A DNA stretch of 64,000 nt from Hyphomonas sp. (lineage in GTDB: Bacteria > Pseudomonadota > Alphaproteobacteria > Caulobacterales > Hyphomonadaceae), in the NCBI GenBank assembly GCA_013791775.1, contig VMTE01000025.1, positions 18,255 through 82,254 on the forward strand, given 5' to 3'. Position numbers and translations under genes: made by a program. Below are positions 22,724-64,000 of the stretch, one piece after another. A model generated the notes under the pieces. That model was given only the letters and a program-made list of their open reading frames with translations. It made no database searches and was not told the origin of the DNA. Positions within the stretch are counted from its first letter, which is position 1; each line of letters begins with the position of its first letter.

Positions 22724-23344
22724 TCAGAATGGCCACAGTCCGATCAACTGCGGCAGCATGTGAAAGACGATGAACATTGCCGCGACAAGGGAGAGCGTCG
22801 CCAGCAGCACCACAACCCCGTCCCGCGCCGTCAGGCCAAGACCGAACAGCAACACGGTCAACCCTGGCAGCAAGGGCCCGAGCGGTACCAGGCCGAGCGG
22901 ATAGGTTATCAGCGAAGCCAGCACGCAAATCAAACCCACAACCTGCACGAAGGGCGCCTCCGTCAGGAAATGAAGGCGCGGGCGCACCAAGGCATCCACC
23001 ATGTACGCATACTTTTCACTCGCACCCACACCCTGCACGAGAAGGTTTCGCTTGAAGCTGAAGTCCAGCGCACGTTTCGGCAGCCAGGGCGTCTTCCGGC
23101 CAATCACGATCTGGAGTGCAAAGATCAGGGTGACCGTTGCCACGAACCAGTTGGCACCGGGGATGACCGTCAGCGGGCTGACGGCAATGAACCCCAGGAG
23201 GAGAAGCACCGGCCCATAGGCCCGGCGCCCTATGGCGGTCAGCAGCTGGCGCACCGTGACGTCGTCGCCCTCGGTGTTGAGCACGAGCGAATGCAGAAGC
23301 GACCGCAAGTTGGTGACCGGGACTTTGGTGCCCTGACGGTTCAT
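22724..23344 (-). CDS. ExoD-family membrane protein
   Basis: 206 residues with about five hydrophobic helices. It has the ExoD pattern: a soluble N-terminus with VRQLLTAIGRRAYGPVLLLLGFIAVSPLTVIPG, then IGRKTPWLPKRALDFSF. ExoD was linked to exopolysaccharide production and alkali tolerance in rhizobia; the mechanism is unknown. Its ATG overlaps the stop of the phosphatase gene (ATGA), making it the third gene of the cysS unit. A paralogue lies at 47810-48430. Confidence 0.85.
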   Translation of the reverse strand: MNRQGTKVPVTNLRSLLHSLVLNTEGDDVTVRQLLTAIGRRAYGPVLLLLGFIAVSPLTVIPGANWFVATVTLIFALQIVIGRKTPWLPKRALDFSFKRNLLVQGVGASEKYAYMVDALVRPRLHFLTEAPFVQVVGLICVLASLITYPLGLVPLGPLLPGLTVLLFGLGLTARDGVVVLLATLSLVAAMFIVFHMLPQLIGLWPF

Positions 23345-23892
23345 TGACTGGCTCCGGGTAGCGCCTTCGACGGCGCGCCATAGCGCTCGATCCGGGACCG
23401 GACGATTCCACCCGCGTCAATGTCGATGACATAGAGCCGATCGAACTCGGCCGCCTCGTCAATTGCAGGACCGGGATCCGCCCCGAGCAGCGCGGCGAGC
23501 GCATCGGTCGTATTCGAGTGCCCGACCACCAGTTTCACGCCGGGCGTATCCAGCAGCCAGCTGGCAAAAGCCGGCAGGGTCGAGGCGTCATAGGTCTGCA
23601 ACACCAGGCCGGTCTGCGCCGCCGTGGGAGCTGCGGTCTGTTCGGTTCGCCGGGTGCGCGTTGACCAGATTTCCGTCACGCCCGCGTCCCGGAGCCGTGC
23701 AGCCAGCGCGTCTGCCCGCGCGGCGCCGGCCGGTGTCAGGCCCGGATCGCTGCCGGCCTCCTTCTCGCCGTGGCGCACAAGGAACAACCGCGTGATGCCC
23801 GCCACATCAGGTTCCGGGGCGGGCGCAGGCGCGGACGCGCAGGCCGTCAGGCACGCTGCCGCCAGCAGGCCCAGAACGCGTCTCCGGATCAT
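23341..23892 (-). CDS. Histidine phosphatase-family lipoprotein
   Basis: 183 residues. The signal MIRRRVLGLLAAACLTACASA ends in a lipobox with Cys near residue 19, so it should be a lipid-anchored periplasmic protein. The catalytic motif FLVRHGEKEAG (RHG) and a later VVGHSNTTDAL give the two active-site histidines of the phosphoglycerate mutase/SixA superfamily. The start ATG at 23892 overlaps the cysS stop (ATGA), favouring it over the upstream Met at 23904. Substrate unknown. Confidence 0.85.
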   Translation of the reverse strand: MIRRRVLGLLAAACLTACASAPAPAPEPDVAGITRLFLVRHGEKEAGSDPGLTPAGAARADALAARLRDAGVTEIWSTRTRRTEQTAAPTAAQTGLVLQTYDASTLPAFASWLLDTPGVKLVVGHSNTTDALAALLGADPGPAIDEAAEFDRLYVIDIDAGGIVRSRIERYGAPSKALPGASQ

Positions 23893-25274
23893 ATCCGCCG
23901 CCATGTGCTGCCTCCCGCGCTGTCCATGATTTCCACGCCTTCTTCGATCAGGGCCTTGCGGATACGGTCCGCCTCGGCCCAATCCCTGGCGGCTCGCGCC
24001 GCGACCCGCGCGGCCACAAGCCCATCAATCCGCGCGGTTTCATCTGCGTTGCCCCCCTGCTCCCATTCCCTGGGGGTGATCGTCAGTAGGCCGAGCAATT
24101 TACCCGCAGCGAGCAGGTTTGCCCGCGCGTTGGCCATGGCGCCAGTGTCTTTCTGATCCGCTGCCATGTTCGCCTCGCTGGCAATCCGTGACAGTTCGGC
24201 CAGCGCTTCCGGCGTGTTTAGATCATCCTCCAGCGCATTGAACACGCCGCGGTCCCGGGCCTCGCCGCCCGTCTCGTCCCAGACACGGCGCAGCGCGCCA
24301 TAGATCCGGTCGAGGGTTGTCTTCGCCTGCTTCAACAGCTCCGGCGTCCAGTCAAGCGGCGCACGGTAGTGCCCGCTCAACATCGCAAAGCGGATCACCT
24401 CGCCGGGCCACTGCTTCAGCAGGTCGTGCACGAGCACGACATTGCCGAGCGACTTGGACATCTTCTCCCCGCCCATGTCGAGGAAGCCGTTGTGCAGCCA
24501 GTAGCGCGCCATGACCTGGCCATGCGCACATTCAGACTGTGCGATCTCGTTCTCATGGTGCGGGAACTGGAGGTCCACACCGCCGCCATGGATGTCGATC
24601 GTCTTGCCCAGATGCTTGGCGGCCATGGCTGAGCATTCGATGTGCCAACCCGGGCGCCCCCGGCCCCAGGGCGAATCCCAGATGGCATCTTCAGGCTCGC
24701 CGGGCTTGGCAAATTTCCAGAGTGCAAAGTCTGCCGGATTGCGTTTGTCGGGATCGACGTCCACGCGCGAGCCCGCCGCGTTGTCATCGGCCTTGCGGCC
24801 GGACAGTTTGCCATAGTCCGACATCTGGCTCACTGAGAACCAGACGCCCTCCTTGCCGACATAGGCATAGTCCTTGCGCACCAGCTTCCCGATGATCTCG
24901 ATCATCTCCGCCACATGCCCGGTCGCCCAGGGCTCGACACTCGGCGGCAGCACGTTCAGGGCCAGCATGTCGGCATTGTAGATATCCGCATACTTCCGGG
25001 TGATCGAGGCGATCGGCTGGCCACTGTCGAGCGCCGCCTTGATGATCTTGTCCTCGATGTCGGTAATGTTGCGGGCAAACACGACCGAACCCTCGCCATA
25101 CGTGGCCAGCAGCAGCCGGCGCAGCACGTCGAAGGCGATCGGCGGCCGGGCATTGCCGATATGGGCAAAGTTGTAGACCGTGGGTCCGCACACGTAGATC
25201 GTGATCCGGCGCGTGTCCTGAGGCTGGAACCCGCGTTTCTCGCGCGTCATCGTATCATAGAGCTTGAGGGTCAT
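23889..25274 (-). CDS. cysS: Cysteinyl-tRNA synthetase
   Basis: 461 residues from MTLKLYDTMTREK at 25274. Class I motifs: YVCGPTVYNFAHIGNAR (zinc Cys plus the HIGH variant HIGN) and KMSKSLGN; zinc ligands also in HIECSAMA and HHENE. It charges tRNA-Cys. It heads an operon with the histidine phosphatase and exoD genes through ATGA overlaps. Between its start and the divergent folE lies a short leader ORF ending in five Cys codons (25354-25404), which suggests control by charged tRNA-Cys supply. Confidence 0.97.
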   Translation of the reverse strand: MTLKLYDTMTREKRGFQPQDTRRITIYVCGPTVYNFAHIGNARPPIAFDVLRRLLLATYGEGSVVFARNITDIEDKIIKAALDSGQPIASITRKYADIYNADMLALNVLPPSVEPWATGHVAEMIEIIGKLVRKDYAYVGKEGVWFSVSQMSDYGKLSGRKADDNAAGSRVDVDPDKRNPADFALWKFAKPGEPEDAIWDSPWGRGRPGWHIECSAMAAKHLGKTIDIHGGGVDLQFPHHENEIAQSECAHGQVMARYWLHNGFLDMGGEKMSKSLGNVVLVHDLLKQWPGEVIRFAMLSGHYRAPLDWTPELLKQAKTTLDRIYGALRRVWDETGGEARDRGVFNALEDDLNTPEALAELSRIASEANMAADQKDTGAMANARANLLAAGKLLGLLTITPREWEQGGNADETARIDGLVAARVAARAARDWAEADRIRKALIEEGVEIMDSAGGSTWRRI

Positions 25275-25353
25275 CTGGTCTCTTCGGGGCGGAAATGTCG
25301 TGAATGCGGCGGCAGGGCGTGTGATCCGGCCAGCCCTATGGCCCGTTGCGGCG

Positions 25354-25404
25354 TCAGCAGCAACAGGGGCAGCAGCCCGAAGCGTTAATAGCGACCATCG
25401 ACAT
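25354..25404 (-). CDS. Cysteine-rich leader peptide upstream of cysS (putative attenuator)
   Basis: A 16-codon ORF reading MSMVAINASGCCPCCC then TGA, so five of the last six codons are Cys (TGC, TGC, CCC, TGT, TGC, TGC). A good ribosome-binding site, GGAG, lies at 25410-25413 on the minus strand, five bases before the ATG. The ORF ends 79 bp before the cysS start, on the same strand. Just downstream, GCAAC can pair back to GTTGC inside the Cys codons, and GGCC...GGCC repeats allow an alternative stem. There is no U-run, so a classical intrinsic terminator is not evident; Rho-dependent or translational attenuation fits better. The ORF and its placement are direct observation; regulation is inference. 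Confidence 0.8.
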   Translation of the reverse strand: MSMVAINASGCCPCCC

Positions 25405-25610
25405 GCGCGCTCCGATAACACCTTACGCCGCGAAAGCCAATAATCTGCTGATCCATGACGCGACGGCGTCCGTAGAAAGCGCTGGAAACGGACGATGTGC
25501 AGTCCTATGTGTTGTGGCATCGCCCTGAGGGTATCAACTCCGGGCGGGCGTTAAGTCCGTGCAGAGATGCCCCGGCTCGACCCCCGTCCCTCAGTGAAGG
25601 ACTAAAACCA

Positions 25611-26237
25611 ATGGCTATGGACGCCGTCACACCCAAGAACGACCTCATCCGTGCGGATTCCGTGATCCGCCCGACGCAGGAACAGGCCGAAGAGGCCGTC
25701 CGCACGCTCATCGCCTGGGCGGGAGACGACCCAAGGCGCGAAGGCCTGATCGACACGCCCAAGCGCGTCGTCAACGCCTACAAGGAATGGTTCGAGGGGT
25801 ACGGCGAAGACCCGGTCAAATACCTCAGCCGCACTTTCGAGGATGTGCAAGGCTATGACGACATCGTCATGCTGCGCAATATCGAGGTCGAAAGCCATTG
25901 CGAGCACCACATGGCACCGTTCATCGGCAAGGCCTTCGTGGCCTACAAGCCGTCGCACGCTGTTGTCGGAATCTCGAAACTCGCCCGCGTAGTCGAAATT
26001 TTCGCCAAGCGCCTGCAAACACAGGAAACCATGACCGCGCAGATCTGCGACGCCATCACCGAAAGCCTCGCGCCGATGGGCACCGCCGTGCTGATCGAAG
26101 CCGAGCATCAGTGCATGTCCACACGCGGCGTGCACCACCGCCACGTCACCACAGTGACGACGCAGTTCACCGGCGTCTTCAAATCGGACGCAGACCTGCG
26201 CAACCGCTTCCTTCGCATGAGCGAGCAGCAGACCTGA
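25611..26237 (+). CDS. folE: GTP cyclohydrolase I
   Basis: 208 residues. It converts GTP to dihydroneopterin triphosphate, the first step of tetrahydrofolate synthesis. Family motifs: [17 protein letters not shown], the zinc cysteine in [36 protein letters not shown], and the second zinc cysteine in [18 protein letters not shown] about ten bases upstream supports the ATG at 25611; another Met lies two codons later. It is divergent from cysS, and a terminator follows. Confidence 0.96.
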
Positions 26238-61668: not shown

Positions 61669-62195
61669 GTGCGACCAGAAAGTCGCATCTGTTGAGTGAG
61701 GCAGGGATGCCTCTGGTCGAGCCTTCTCGACCATTTCTAACCGGAGCGTGCGAGCTGGGTAACCGGCTGGTGCGGAGCCTCCGGCAACGAGCGGGGAGCT
61801 GGCAGCCACAAGCCGGCGAACCGCCCAAGGAGAAGACCGGTATGGTGAACGAAAGTGAATCTGTGTCGATGCGTCGTTACACATCAGTCCCCCGGAAGTG
61901 GCTTTTACGGGGAGAGCGGGAATGGGCTGCGGGCACGTGGACTCCGCAGTCAGAAGGTCGATATTCCCCGGCGTATAGCAGGCACCTAACCCGGTCGCAT
62001 CTCACAGATGCGGAACTGAGTAACCCCGATGAGGTCCGCGCGTTGTTTGCAGCGATCGGTAAGCGGCTCGCAAGAGCCGCCCAATCCCTCAGCGGGTGGA
62101 GGATGTCATCAGAAGCGAATGCCGCCCGCCGAAAGGCACGGGGAATCAATAACCCGGCGGATAGGGCCATGCCCAACCTGAAAGGGTGCTGACAG

Positions 62196-63926
62196 ATGAC
62201 TGGTGAGTCCCCCGTAATCTCGTGGAACAGCAACCGAACCGTTCGTGAAAAGATGGACGGGCCGCAAGGCCTGATCGTAAGCGGCGGAACCGTTCAATGG
62301 CAGGCCATCGACTGGACTGCCGCCTATCGAACCGTCAGGACGCTGCGCCGGAGAATCTACCGGGCGACTGAAATGCGGGACTGGAAGAAAGTCCGCTCAC
62401 TGCAAAAGCTGATGCTGCGCAGCCGGGCGAACCTGTTTCTCTCCATCCGAAGGGTCAGCCAGATCAATCGAGGGAAAGGCACTCCAGGTGTCGATGCGCG
62501 AACCGCACTGACACCGGCCGAGCGAGCCGACCTTGCGAACGAGATGGTGAACCTCAAGGCATGGAAGCCTCTTCCGGCCCGGAGGGTGTATATCCCGAAA
62601 GCCAACGGCAAGAAGCGGCCGCTTGGAATCCCGTCCCTTATCGACCGGTGCCAGCAAGCGATTGTGCTGAATGCACTTGAGCCCTGCTGGGAAGCACAGT
62701 TCGAGGGGACAAGTTACGGGTTCCGGCCCGGTCGGGGCGTCCATGACGCCATCGAACGGATACATCTGGCAACGAAATCCGGCTCTAATCGGGTCTGGGT
62801 TCTCGATGCCGATATCAAAGGCTGCTTCGACAATATCGACCACAACGCCCTGATGGAGGCCATCGGCAACTTCCCCGCAAGGGGAATGATCCGCCGCTGG
62901 CTGAAAGCAGGCTATGTGGAAGATGGCGTCTTCAATGCCACCGAACAGGGCACGCCGCAGGGTGGGGTCATCAGCCCCCTCCTCGCGAACATCGCTCTGC
63001 ACGGAATGGAAGAAGCGCTGGGCATTGAGTATCGCGGCGGCGTCAGCGCCACCACGATCAAACCTCACTGTCCCGTCTTTGTGCGGTATGCGGACGACTT
63101 TGTCGTCATCTGCCACACGAAGGAAGATGCGCATGAGGCCAGGACACGCGTTGCGGCCTTCCTTTCCGGGCGCGGTCTTCACCTCTCTGAGGAGAAGACC
63201 AGCATCCGGCACATACGGGAAGGCTTCGACTTCCTCGGCTTCAATGTCCGTTCCTACACGGTGTCCGACCGCGCCGCTGGCACGAAGACCCTGATCAAGC
63301 CTTCCAAGGCCGCCGTTAAGGCGTTCCGGAAAAAGCTGAGGGACCTGTTCCGCGCCCATGTCGGTACGGATCAGGGGCAGCTGATCTCAGCTGCCAACCC
63401 GGTGATACGTGGATGGTGCAATTACTACCGCTACAGTGTCGCCTCACGGATCTTTGCGGAGATCGAACACTACGTCCATGTTCGGCAACGTCGCTGGTGC
63501 CACCGTGCCCATGCGAGGAAGTTGAAACACTGGTGGATGCGGAAGTACTTCGGGCGGCACTATAACTGCCCGAACTTCAGCTACACCTTCATGGACAAGC
63601 AGTCTGGTGCGTTCATGATCCACCCGGCCGCGATCAAGATCGTGCGCTGGACGATGGTGAAACATCGCAACTCTCCCGACGATCCATCTCGTGCCGACTA
63701 CTGGCGCGGGCGGGAACGCCGGACCGGAGGGACTGACCTCACGCGCAGCTGGCAGAAGGTCGCGCAGCAGCAAAGGCACAAATGCCCGACCTGCCGCGAG
63801 AGCCTCTACAACGGCGATACCATCCGCATGTCTCATCGCGATGGGGACAGGAAGAATGGCTCCTACCGGAACCTCGCTCTTGTCCATGCCGACTGCCGCC
63901 GCGCGGCAAAACAGGGACTTGCTTGA
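62196..63926 (+). CDS. ltrA: Group II intron reverse transcriptase/maturase with HNH endonuclease
   Basis: 576 residues. RT_N region (about 33-90, WQAIDWTAAYRTVRTLRRRI), finger/palm RT domain with TPGVD (96-100), QGTPQGG (251-257) and the catalytic YADD (298-301), maturase X domain (about 365-480, IRGWCNYYRYSVASRIF), and a C-terminal HNH endonuclease with C530, C533, H547, H564 and C567. It helps intron splicing, nicks target DNA and copies the intron. The first Met is at 62196; a second at 62253 is also possible. The stop codon TGA overlaps the start of domain V. Confidence 0.95.
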   Translation: MTGESPVISWNSNRTVREKMDGPQGLIVSGGTVQWQAIDWTAAYRTVRTLRRRIYRATEMRDWKKVRSLQKLMLRSRANLFLSIRRVSQINRGKGTPGVDARTALTPAERADLANEMVNLKAWKPLPARRVYIPKANGKKRPLGIPSLIDRCQQAIVLNALEPCWEAQFEGTSYGFRPGRGVHDAIERIHLATKSGSNRVWVLDADIKGCFDNIDHNALMEAIGNFPARGMIRRWLKAGYVEDGVFNATEQGTPQGGVISPLLANIALHGMEEALGIEYRGGVSATTIKPHCPVFVRYADDFVVICHTKEDAHEARTRVAAFLSGRGLHLSEEKTSIRHIREGFDFLGFNVRSYTVSDRAAGTKTLIKPSKAAVKAFRKKLRDLFRAHVGTDQGQLISAANPVIRGWCNYYRYSVASRIFAEIEHYVHVRQRRWCHRAHARKLKHWWMRKYFGRHYNCPNFSYTFMDKQSGAFMIHPAAIKIVRWTMVKHRNSPDDPSRADYWRGRERRTGGTDLTRSWQKVAQQQRHKCPTCRESLYNGDTIRMSHRDGDRKNGSYRNLALVHADCRRAAKQGLA

Positions 63927-63958
63927 GCCGTGTGCGGGGAAACTTGCAAGCACGGTTC
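63925..63958 (+). ncRNA. Group II intron domain V
   Basis: 34-nt hairpin GAGCCGTGTGCGG-GGAAAC-...-CACGGTTC with the catalytic AGC triad at 63926-63928, a GAAA loop (63938-63941) and a two-base bulge in the stem. It lies directly after the maturase ORF, and domain VI with its branch-point A (63993) follows. Confidence 0.92.
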
Positions 63959-64000
63959 TGAGGGGGCGGGCCGGTGGCAACACCGGCCTGCTACCCGACA

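Follow-up and report, generated by a model that had tools for sequence, protein, structure and literature searches.

What is a run of cysteine codons doing immediately ahead of the gene for cysteinyl-tRNA synthetase? The question is raised by a short open reading frame (ORF) in the stretch of DNA analysed here (64,000 nucleotides from Hyphomonas sp., henceforth referred to as the window), which a first-pass annotation had described as 16 codons long, with five Cys in six codons, 79 nt ahead of cysS and on the same strand. Translation of window positions 25404-25354 (minus strand) confirmed this description: five of the last six codons are Cys, and 79 nt separate the stop codon from the cysS ATG at 25274, both being on the minus strand (Table 1). 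From the comparative sequence evidence given below, the ORF probably acts in Hyphomonas as a leader for ribosome-mediated attenuation of cysS in response to Cys-tRNA; cysS as a target matches the amino acid that would be sensed.

Table 1. Features of the leader locus and of the genes behind it, in window coordinates.
Feature	Position	Strand	Remarks
Proposed leader promoter, -35 element TTGGCT	25435..25440	minus	T-36 28/34, T-35 34/34, G-34 28/34
-10 element TATCGG	25412..25417	minus	T-13 30/34, A-12 28/34; TG at 25420-25419
Leader ORF, MSMVAINASGCCPCCC and stop	25354..25404	minus	16 codons; AUG is the proposed mRNA 5' end; C at -1 in 29/34
Cys codons 14-16, TGT TGC TGC	25357..25365	minus	Invariant core is TGTTG
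Putative hairpin P1, final Cys codons pairing with GCAACGGG just past the stop	25342..25367	minus	z -1.8; 10/200 shuffles as good
Conserved block CAACGGGCCATAGGGCTGGCC 3' of the leader stop	25328..25348	minus	CCAT and TAGG nearly invariant in the genus
cysS, cysteinyl-tRNA synthetase, 461 aa	23889..25274	minus	Pfam PF01406 E 1.5e-120, DALR_2, CysS_C
Histidine phosphatase family gene	23341..23982	minus	PF00300; start codon uncertain, listed ORF overlaps cysS
exoD family gene	22724..23344	minus	PF06055; 4-nt overlap with the histidine phosphatase family gene

A run of cysteine codons beyond chance

The Cys run had been judged to exceed what this base composition would give by chance, and dinucleotide shuffling of the 340 nt that precede cysS bore this out. 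None of 20,000 shuffles contained a short ORF with at least five Cys in its final six codons, while at least four Cys appeared at a frequency of 5e-5 and at least three at 1.4e-3. The cysS frame itself stays open upstream to 25520, so that the leader site also falls inside a 553-codon open frame of cysS, and the ORF listing has a 543-aa cysS starting at 25520 and spanning the region. The short ORF might in principle be an out-of-frame piece of an N-terminal extension of CysS. Such an extension was rejected, however, because the alignment of relatives starts at 25274, and the distance from the leader stop to cysS, 75-86 nt over 35 Hyphomonas leaders (see below), is not kept in frame. With the Cys run also far above chance, we give next to no credence to either a chance ORF or a piece of a CysS extension.

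Searches of the window's genome located 22 occurrences of the pattern TGYTGYYGYTRA, as compared to 16 of its backwards control. Of the 22, the leader site is the only one with five Cys within the last six codons; the remaining 21 sit inside longer stop-free frames of 130-726 aa. A second pattern, TGYTGYTGYTRA, had 6 sites against 7 for its backwards control. Neither pattern, both being blind to leaders with scattered Cys, disclosed a convincing further poly-Cys leader in this genome, the other sites lying in longer frames. No Rfam family matched near the leader at its gathering score, two matches with E up to 5 falling far below the family cut-offs.

Conservation of the leader within Hyphomonas

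The comparison within the genus drew on 42 genomes, and upstream DNA was examined in 39 of them (loci L002-L039 and L056); left out were one genome with cysS split between contigs (G011), one without a match (G026) and one with 27 nt of upstream DNA (G098). A 16-codon ORF with Cys at codons 14 and 15 is present in 35 of the 39, the Cys14-Cys15 pair being a selection criterion that was set after an open scan lacking that requirement had given the same 35. Most of these leaders contain additional in-frame starts; with the ATG that follows the promoter taken as codon 1, every one of the 35 has 16 codons. CysS of a Hyphomonas MAG and of H. beringensis is 85% and 80% identical, respectively, to that of the window, and both carry the leader, with peptides identical to those in two same-genus genomes.

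Conservation is unevenly distributed along the ORF. Over codons 2-11 the mean information (averaged by hand) is 0.48, 0.51 and 0.54 bits at codon positions 1, 2 and 3; third positions are conserved like first and second ones, and the N-terminal half of the leader thus appears to be without coding constraint. The Cys run, whose conservation the first-pass annotation had suggested checking, behaves otherwise, with Cys14-Cys15 kept while the N-terminal codons drift. Among 33 distinct sequences, codon 15 switches between TGC and TGT (28:5), while codon 14 is TGT in all 33, in a genus whose cysS genes use TGC 94 times and TGT 8 times. That TGT is fixed here despite the preference for TGC indicates that TGTTG is constrained as RNA or DNA as well. 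Around the invariant pair, Cys occupies codon 12 in 16/33 sequences, codon 13 in 13/33 and codon 16 in 20/33, Arg stands instead of Cys16 in 13/33, and the number of Cys per leader ranges from 3 to 6.

A small Cys-rich peptide with a function of its own, for instance in metal binding, could also preserve a C-terminal Cys cluster in 35 of 39 genomes with no ribosome pause involved. Its N-terminal half would nevertheless be unconserved as a protein, its Cys count would vary twofold and its last Cys would be exchanged for Arg in over a third of the distinct sequences, and we regard such a peptide as very unlikely in comparison with a pause site.

Relatives that lack the Cys run in an otherwise alignable region had been named at the outset as evidence against a leader, and one such relative was found. 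Locus L032 keeps the block (76.8 bits against model R1, which was built from the Hyphomonas leaders) but has UGA at codon 11. The TGA replaces a Cys codon there, truncating the leader ahead of most Cys codons. At L004, L005 and L008 the leader block is replaced by other sequence, with an element of the folE side (described at the end) directly behind.

Proposed promoter and start of the leader

An ungapped alignment of 34 distinct Hyphomonas sequences, anchored on the ATG, shows two conserved motifs upstream of it: TTGGCTTT starts at -36 and TGNTA at -16. The spacer between the -35 and -10 hexamers is 17 nt long, and the end of the -10 hexamer lies 7 nt from the leader AUG. The combination TTGGC-N14-16-TGNTA-N9-11-CATG has a single match in the whole genome, at the leader, and its backwards control also has one. 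An E. coli-type promoter scan did not report the leader promoter.

The GGAG at 25413-25410 had been read as the ribosome-binding site of the ORF. We doubt this assignment because the motif and the -10 hexamer (25417-25412) share bases at the hexamer's end, and because transcription is proposed to start downstream of the motif, at 25404. Across the genus, GGAG, GAGG or AGGA stands at the usual place in just 3 of 35 leaders, that of the window included. Given that 7 nt separate the promoter-like element from the AUG and that Shine-Dalgarno-like motifs are this rare, the leader is probably translated leaderless, a start that the geometry of the promoter favours over the GGAG.

The constraint on TGTTG invites another explanation, in which this motif and the CATAGG/CATTAGG block form a second cysS promoter (TTGCTG-N17-CATAGG) that overlaps the leader, the Cys codons being a by-product of its -35. 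It would account for TGT always being found at codon 14, and in each of the two sequence classes 17 nt do lie between the invariant TTG and CATAGG or CATTAG. It leaves unexplained, on the other hand, why the frame keeps to 16 codons, why an AUG stands 7 nt past a -10 and why Cys is found at codons 12, 13 and 16. Conservation moreover extends through the spacer of this candidate (CAAC) and past its -10 (GGGCTG), and the block is absent from two other leader groups, in which R1 finds nothing beyond the borderline match at L057. The promoter scan gave no minus-strand site for it, though it missed the leader promoter too. Altogether we consider a second promoter an improbable source of the Cys codons and retain the attenuator leader as the preferred reading.

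Hairpins, terminators and the stretch before cysS

In most species the final Cys codons can pair with a conserved CAAC behind the stop, giving a hairpin around the stop codon (P1). Over 33 sequences 77% of the P1 cells are paired, as compared to 37-42% when the pairing is slid by 1, 2 or +3 and 68% when it is slid by -3, the last value being high because the Cys codons repeat. Against column shuffles, covariation is not clearly above expectation (31/500 for cells paired, 57/500 for double-change cells, 113/500 for the covariation score), and 12 of 33 sequences have a P1 whose energy is better (p<0.05) than in shuffled tails, the median being 0.063. We consider P1 likely, with moderate support. 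RNAalifold gave a weak consensus on the genus alignment. A general second stem further downstream (AGGGCUG with GCCCU or CAGCCC) was rejected because over 34 sequences it folds no better than shuffles (median fraction 0.53); in some subclades it is convincing by eye.

The first reading had noted the absence of a U-rich terminator, and this holds: no terminator-like sites were found in 24900-25700, with 0.4 expected. The interval between leader and cysS contains at most 4 T per 8 nt in 29 of 35 Hyphomonas loci and 5-6 in the other six. In six related species (L022, L030, L031, L036, L037 and L038) a G+C hairpin can be drawn downstream by eye, followed at a distance of some nucleotides by a U-rich tract. 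An attenuator of the trp type, with mutually exclusive antiterminator and terminator hairpins and a U-run, was not recognised, as the window has no U-run and the downstream stem is no better than shuffles overall.

How attenuation might work

In the mechanism that we propose, the A of the leader AUG would be the first nucleotide transcribed, and ribosomes would initiate on this leaderless 5' end. When charged tRNA-Cys is short, a ribosome would pause on codons 11-16 and cover the 5' arm of P1, and cysS would be made; with ample Cys-tRNA the ribosome would run off, P1 would fold and cysS expression would drop. The initial idea of a Cys-codon leader for cysS is supported in that the leader appears to be under selection (35/39 Hyphomonas genomes with drifting N-terminal codons); the ribosome-binding site assigned to it is doubtful.

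The final step could be Rho-dependent termination, another kind of termination or a block of cysS translation. For the window Rho is slightly favoured, because a U-run is lacking and because C is abundant and G scarce in the 52 nt examined ahead of cysS. The C-over-G excess of the window, 0.17, is the highest of ten gene-upstream regions compared. Its means, most of them widely spread, are 0.109 in Hyphomonas, 0.058 in the three leader-less Hyphomonas, 0.066 in a Rhodobacteraceae-like family (f23) and 0.032 in a class survey (both introduced below), and over 29 loci from further genera of the same family, among which no more than one has a leader, it is 0.078. The excess is thus modest and not clearly specific to leader-bearing loci.

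Alternatively, the output may be purely translational, leader translation altering the folding near the cysS ribosome-binding site with no termination involved. The window is without a terminator, and none of the 35 cysS genes is preceded by GGAG, GAGG or AGGA (only the weaker AGAG or CGAG occurs), so that initiation may need help. A consistent pairing with the cysS start region was not found by eye, however, and the whole-leader fold is ordinary (z -0.47). We see a translational output as possible, with the odds against it.

The first-pass annotation supposed that the leader could also adjust the phosphatase and exoD genes behind cysS. Such co-control is conceivable in the window; neither gene is a general target, because a phosphatase homologue follows cysS in just 15 of 35 Hyphomonas loci and an exoD homologue likewise in 15 of 35 (two of the 35 are repeats).

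Cysteine-codon leaders beyond Hyphomonas

We surveyed other lineages for ORFs of 8-20 codons that have Cys at two or more of the final eight codons and a stop 50-115 nt ahead of cysS. Hyphomonas yields 35/39 by this measure, with 0.68 expected in shuffled sequence. Such leaders are frequent in the sister genus g15 (17/28 loci, 0.67 expected; 28 of 29 genomes) and in f23 (20/30, 0.46 expected; out of 41, the 30 with the highest scores). Loci from other genera of the same family gave 1/30 (0.47 expected) and other families of the order 0/15 (0.23 expected; 15 of 24 fetched). A class survey, which took 60 of 220 matching genomes and drew almost every one from a family of its own, gave 5/60 (0.82 expected), and a set of contigs, L213-L290, gave 5/77 (1.41 expected; L227, with almost no upstream DNA, was dropped). 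The last two sets contain somewhat more candidates than chance, e.g. L125 (VSVDVLCCCA) and Lutimaribacter L285. The Paracoccus homiensis and Falsigemmobacter loci had no Cys-codon leader.

The g15 leaders (L057-L093) are, like those of Hyphomonas, Cys-rich ORFs, of 10-16 codons and 58-81 nt before cysS. They differ in that several of them have a clear AAGGAG ribosome-binding site, and in having other peptides (MPLRVICCVCICG and relatives) and other hairpins. In several of them a hairpin can be seen by eye at or after the stop, e.g. GGCTAAGGC...GTCTTAGCC.

The f23 leaders have C at -1 in 20/23, a -35 at the same distance as in Hyphomonas and a weaker -10, and their tandem Cys codons lie at about positions 8-12. 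We take f23 to be Rhodobacteraceae because R2, a model built from 21 of these Rhodobacteraceae-like leaders, finds the Lutimaribacter leader with 85.8 bits. Downstream of the leader, about 25-45 nt before cysS, another block is conserved at the f23 loci L182-L209. This block, AAGTTGCTAAGCCCGC, is complementary to a GCGGGC that follows the stop and could be part of a long-range stem or a second promoter.

This patchy spread, over Hyphomonas, a sister genus with Shine-Dalgarno-led leaders, f23 and scattered candidates, suggests repeated invention or rapid turnover of leaders for one gene.

Relation to known cysteine-codon leaders

Hyphomonas was formerly classed in the Rhodobacterales, and it is for cysS of that order that a Cys-codon leader has been described. 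According to Brewer et al. 2021 (PMC8632094), the motif uORFC-8-2 has 145 examples, exclusively ahead of Rhodobacterales cysS. Its tandem Cys codons mostly occupy positions 14 and 15, UGC being dominant; it ends in a U-run, read as an intrinsic terminator, and was interpreted by its authors as ribosome-mediated attenuation. The first-pass annotation, which knew of no such leader for an alphaproteobacterial cysS, is overtaken by this description. The Hyphomonas leaders share with uORFC-8-2 a short upstream ORF, tandem Cys codons at 14/15 and a position directly ahead of an alphaproteobacterial cysS. They differ from it in the window's lack of a U-run terminator and in codon 14, which is UGU in 33/33 where UGC dominates in uORFC-8-2. 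The first stem of uORFC-8-2 contains the Cys codons; in Hyphomonas the putative P1 would pair them with the post-stop CAAC, at a covariation not clearly above that of shuffles.

We tentatively take the f23 leaders to be the uORFC-8-2 motif, even though the published Cys positions 14 and 15 fit Hyphomonas and not the sampled f23 leaders (about 8-12). Because of that fit, the Hyphomonas leaders may themselves overlap the published motif. Models built from each group do not recognise the other's leaders. R2, which has only 3 base pairs, tests sequence and not structure and differs from the published uORFC-8-2 model, finds the held-out Lutimaribacter L285 (85.8 bits) and L209 (47.5 bits). Against the window and 20 other Hyphomonas loci its only match at a leader is at L013 (7.2 bits, E 4.1), its best other match lying away from the leader, at L006 (15 bits). 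Conversely, R1 found no leader in 20 f23 loci and L285, and in g15 gave a borderline match at the L057 leader (12.4 bits, E 0.08).

A bolder reading is that Hyphomonas has a terminator-free, leaderless Cys-tRNA sensor, of an origin independent of the Rhodobacteraceae one or diverged from it beyond recognition, in which a stop-codon hairpin blocked by the ribosome spares cysS from Rho. The pause site would then be fixed 40-48 nt from the 5' end of an mRNA beginning at the AUG, and the fixed 16-codon length would set the timing of the first ribosome relative to RNA polymerase. We put this forward tentatively, as a suggestion that may well fail. If it is true, a synthetase gene sensed through its own codons would offer a natural test of leaderless ribosome-RNA polymerase coupling, and a clean one, because 35 genomes place the pause site equally far from the proposed 5' end of the RNA.

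Outside the Alphaproteobacteria, Canestrari et al. 2020 are said to have described leaderless polycysteine short ORFs in mycobacteria, with Cys-responsive attenuation of the downstream gene. The Hyphomonas leader resembles them in its contiguous Cys codons and proposed leaderless start. Mycobacteria belong to another phylum and reportedly have several such ORFs per genome, against one in the window's genome by the patterns tried; the Cys response of the downstream gene was reportedly tested there and is predicted from sequence in Hyphomonas. A further functional parallel, besides the mycobacterial ORFs, is given by the Cys-run leaders of actinobacterial cys operons (PMC1262725), with Cys codons near the stop, no conserved terminator hairpin and a proposed role for Rho. 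The Hyphomonas leader likewise has its Cys codons close to the stop and no terminator-like site in the window; it stands before cysS, whereas the actinobacterial ones belong to cysteine operons and cbs (PMC1262725). No other cysS leaders of such a kind were found in the literature searched, which covered few subscription papers. The kind of gauge is known in other bacteria; the Hyphomonas version has its own layout.

Other features of the window

Between the divergent folE and cysS, on the plus strand at 25522-25559, the folE 5' leader contains a strongly conserved element, GCCCTGAGGGTATCAACTCCGGGCGGGCGTTAAGTCCG. Its core, ACTTAACGCCYGCCC, occurs at 63 of 308 loci (repeats included): at every one of the 39 Hyphomonas loci examined, at loci from further genera of the family and at a single locus from a different family; adjacency to folE was checked in the window. 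The element has no Rfam match and a fold z of -1.7, and may be a folE leader RNA or an operator not described before. At 61713-63999, on the plus strand, the window contains pieces of a group II intron (Rfam RF02012, RF00029).
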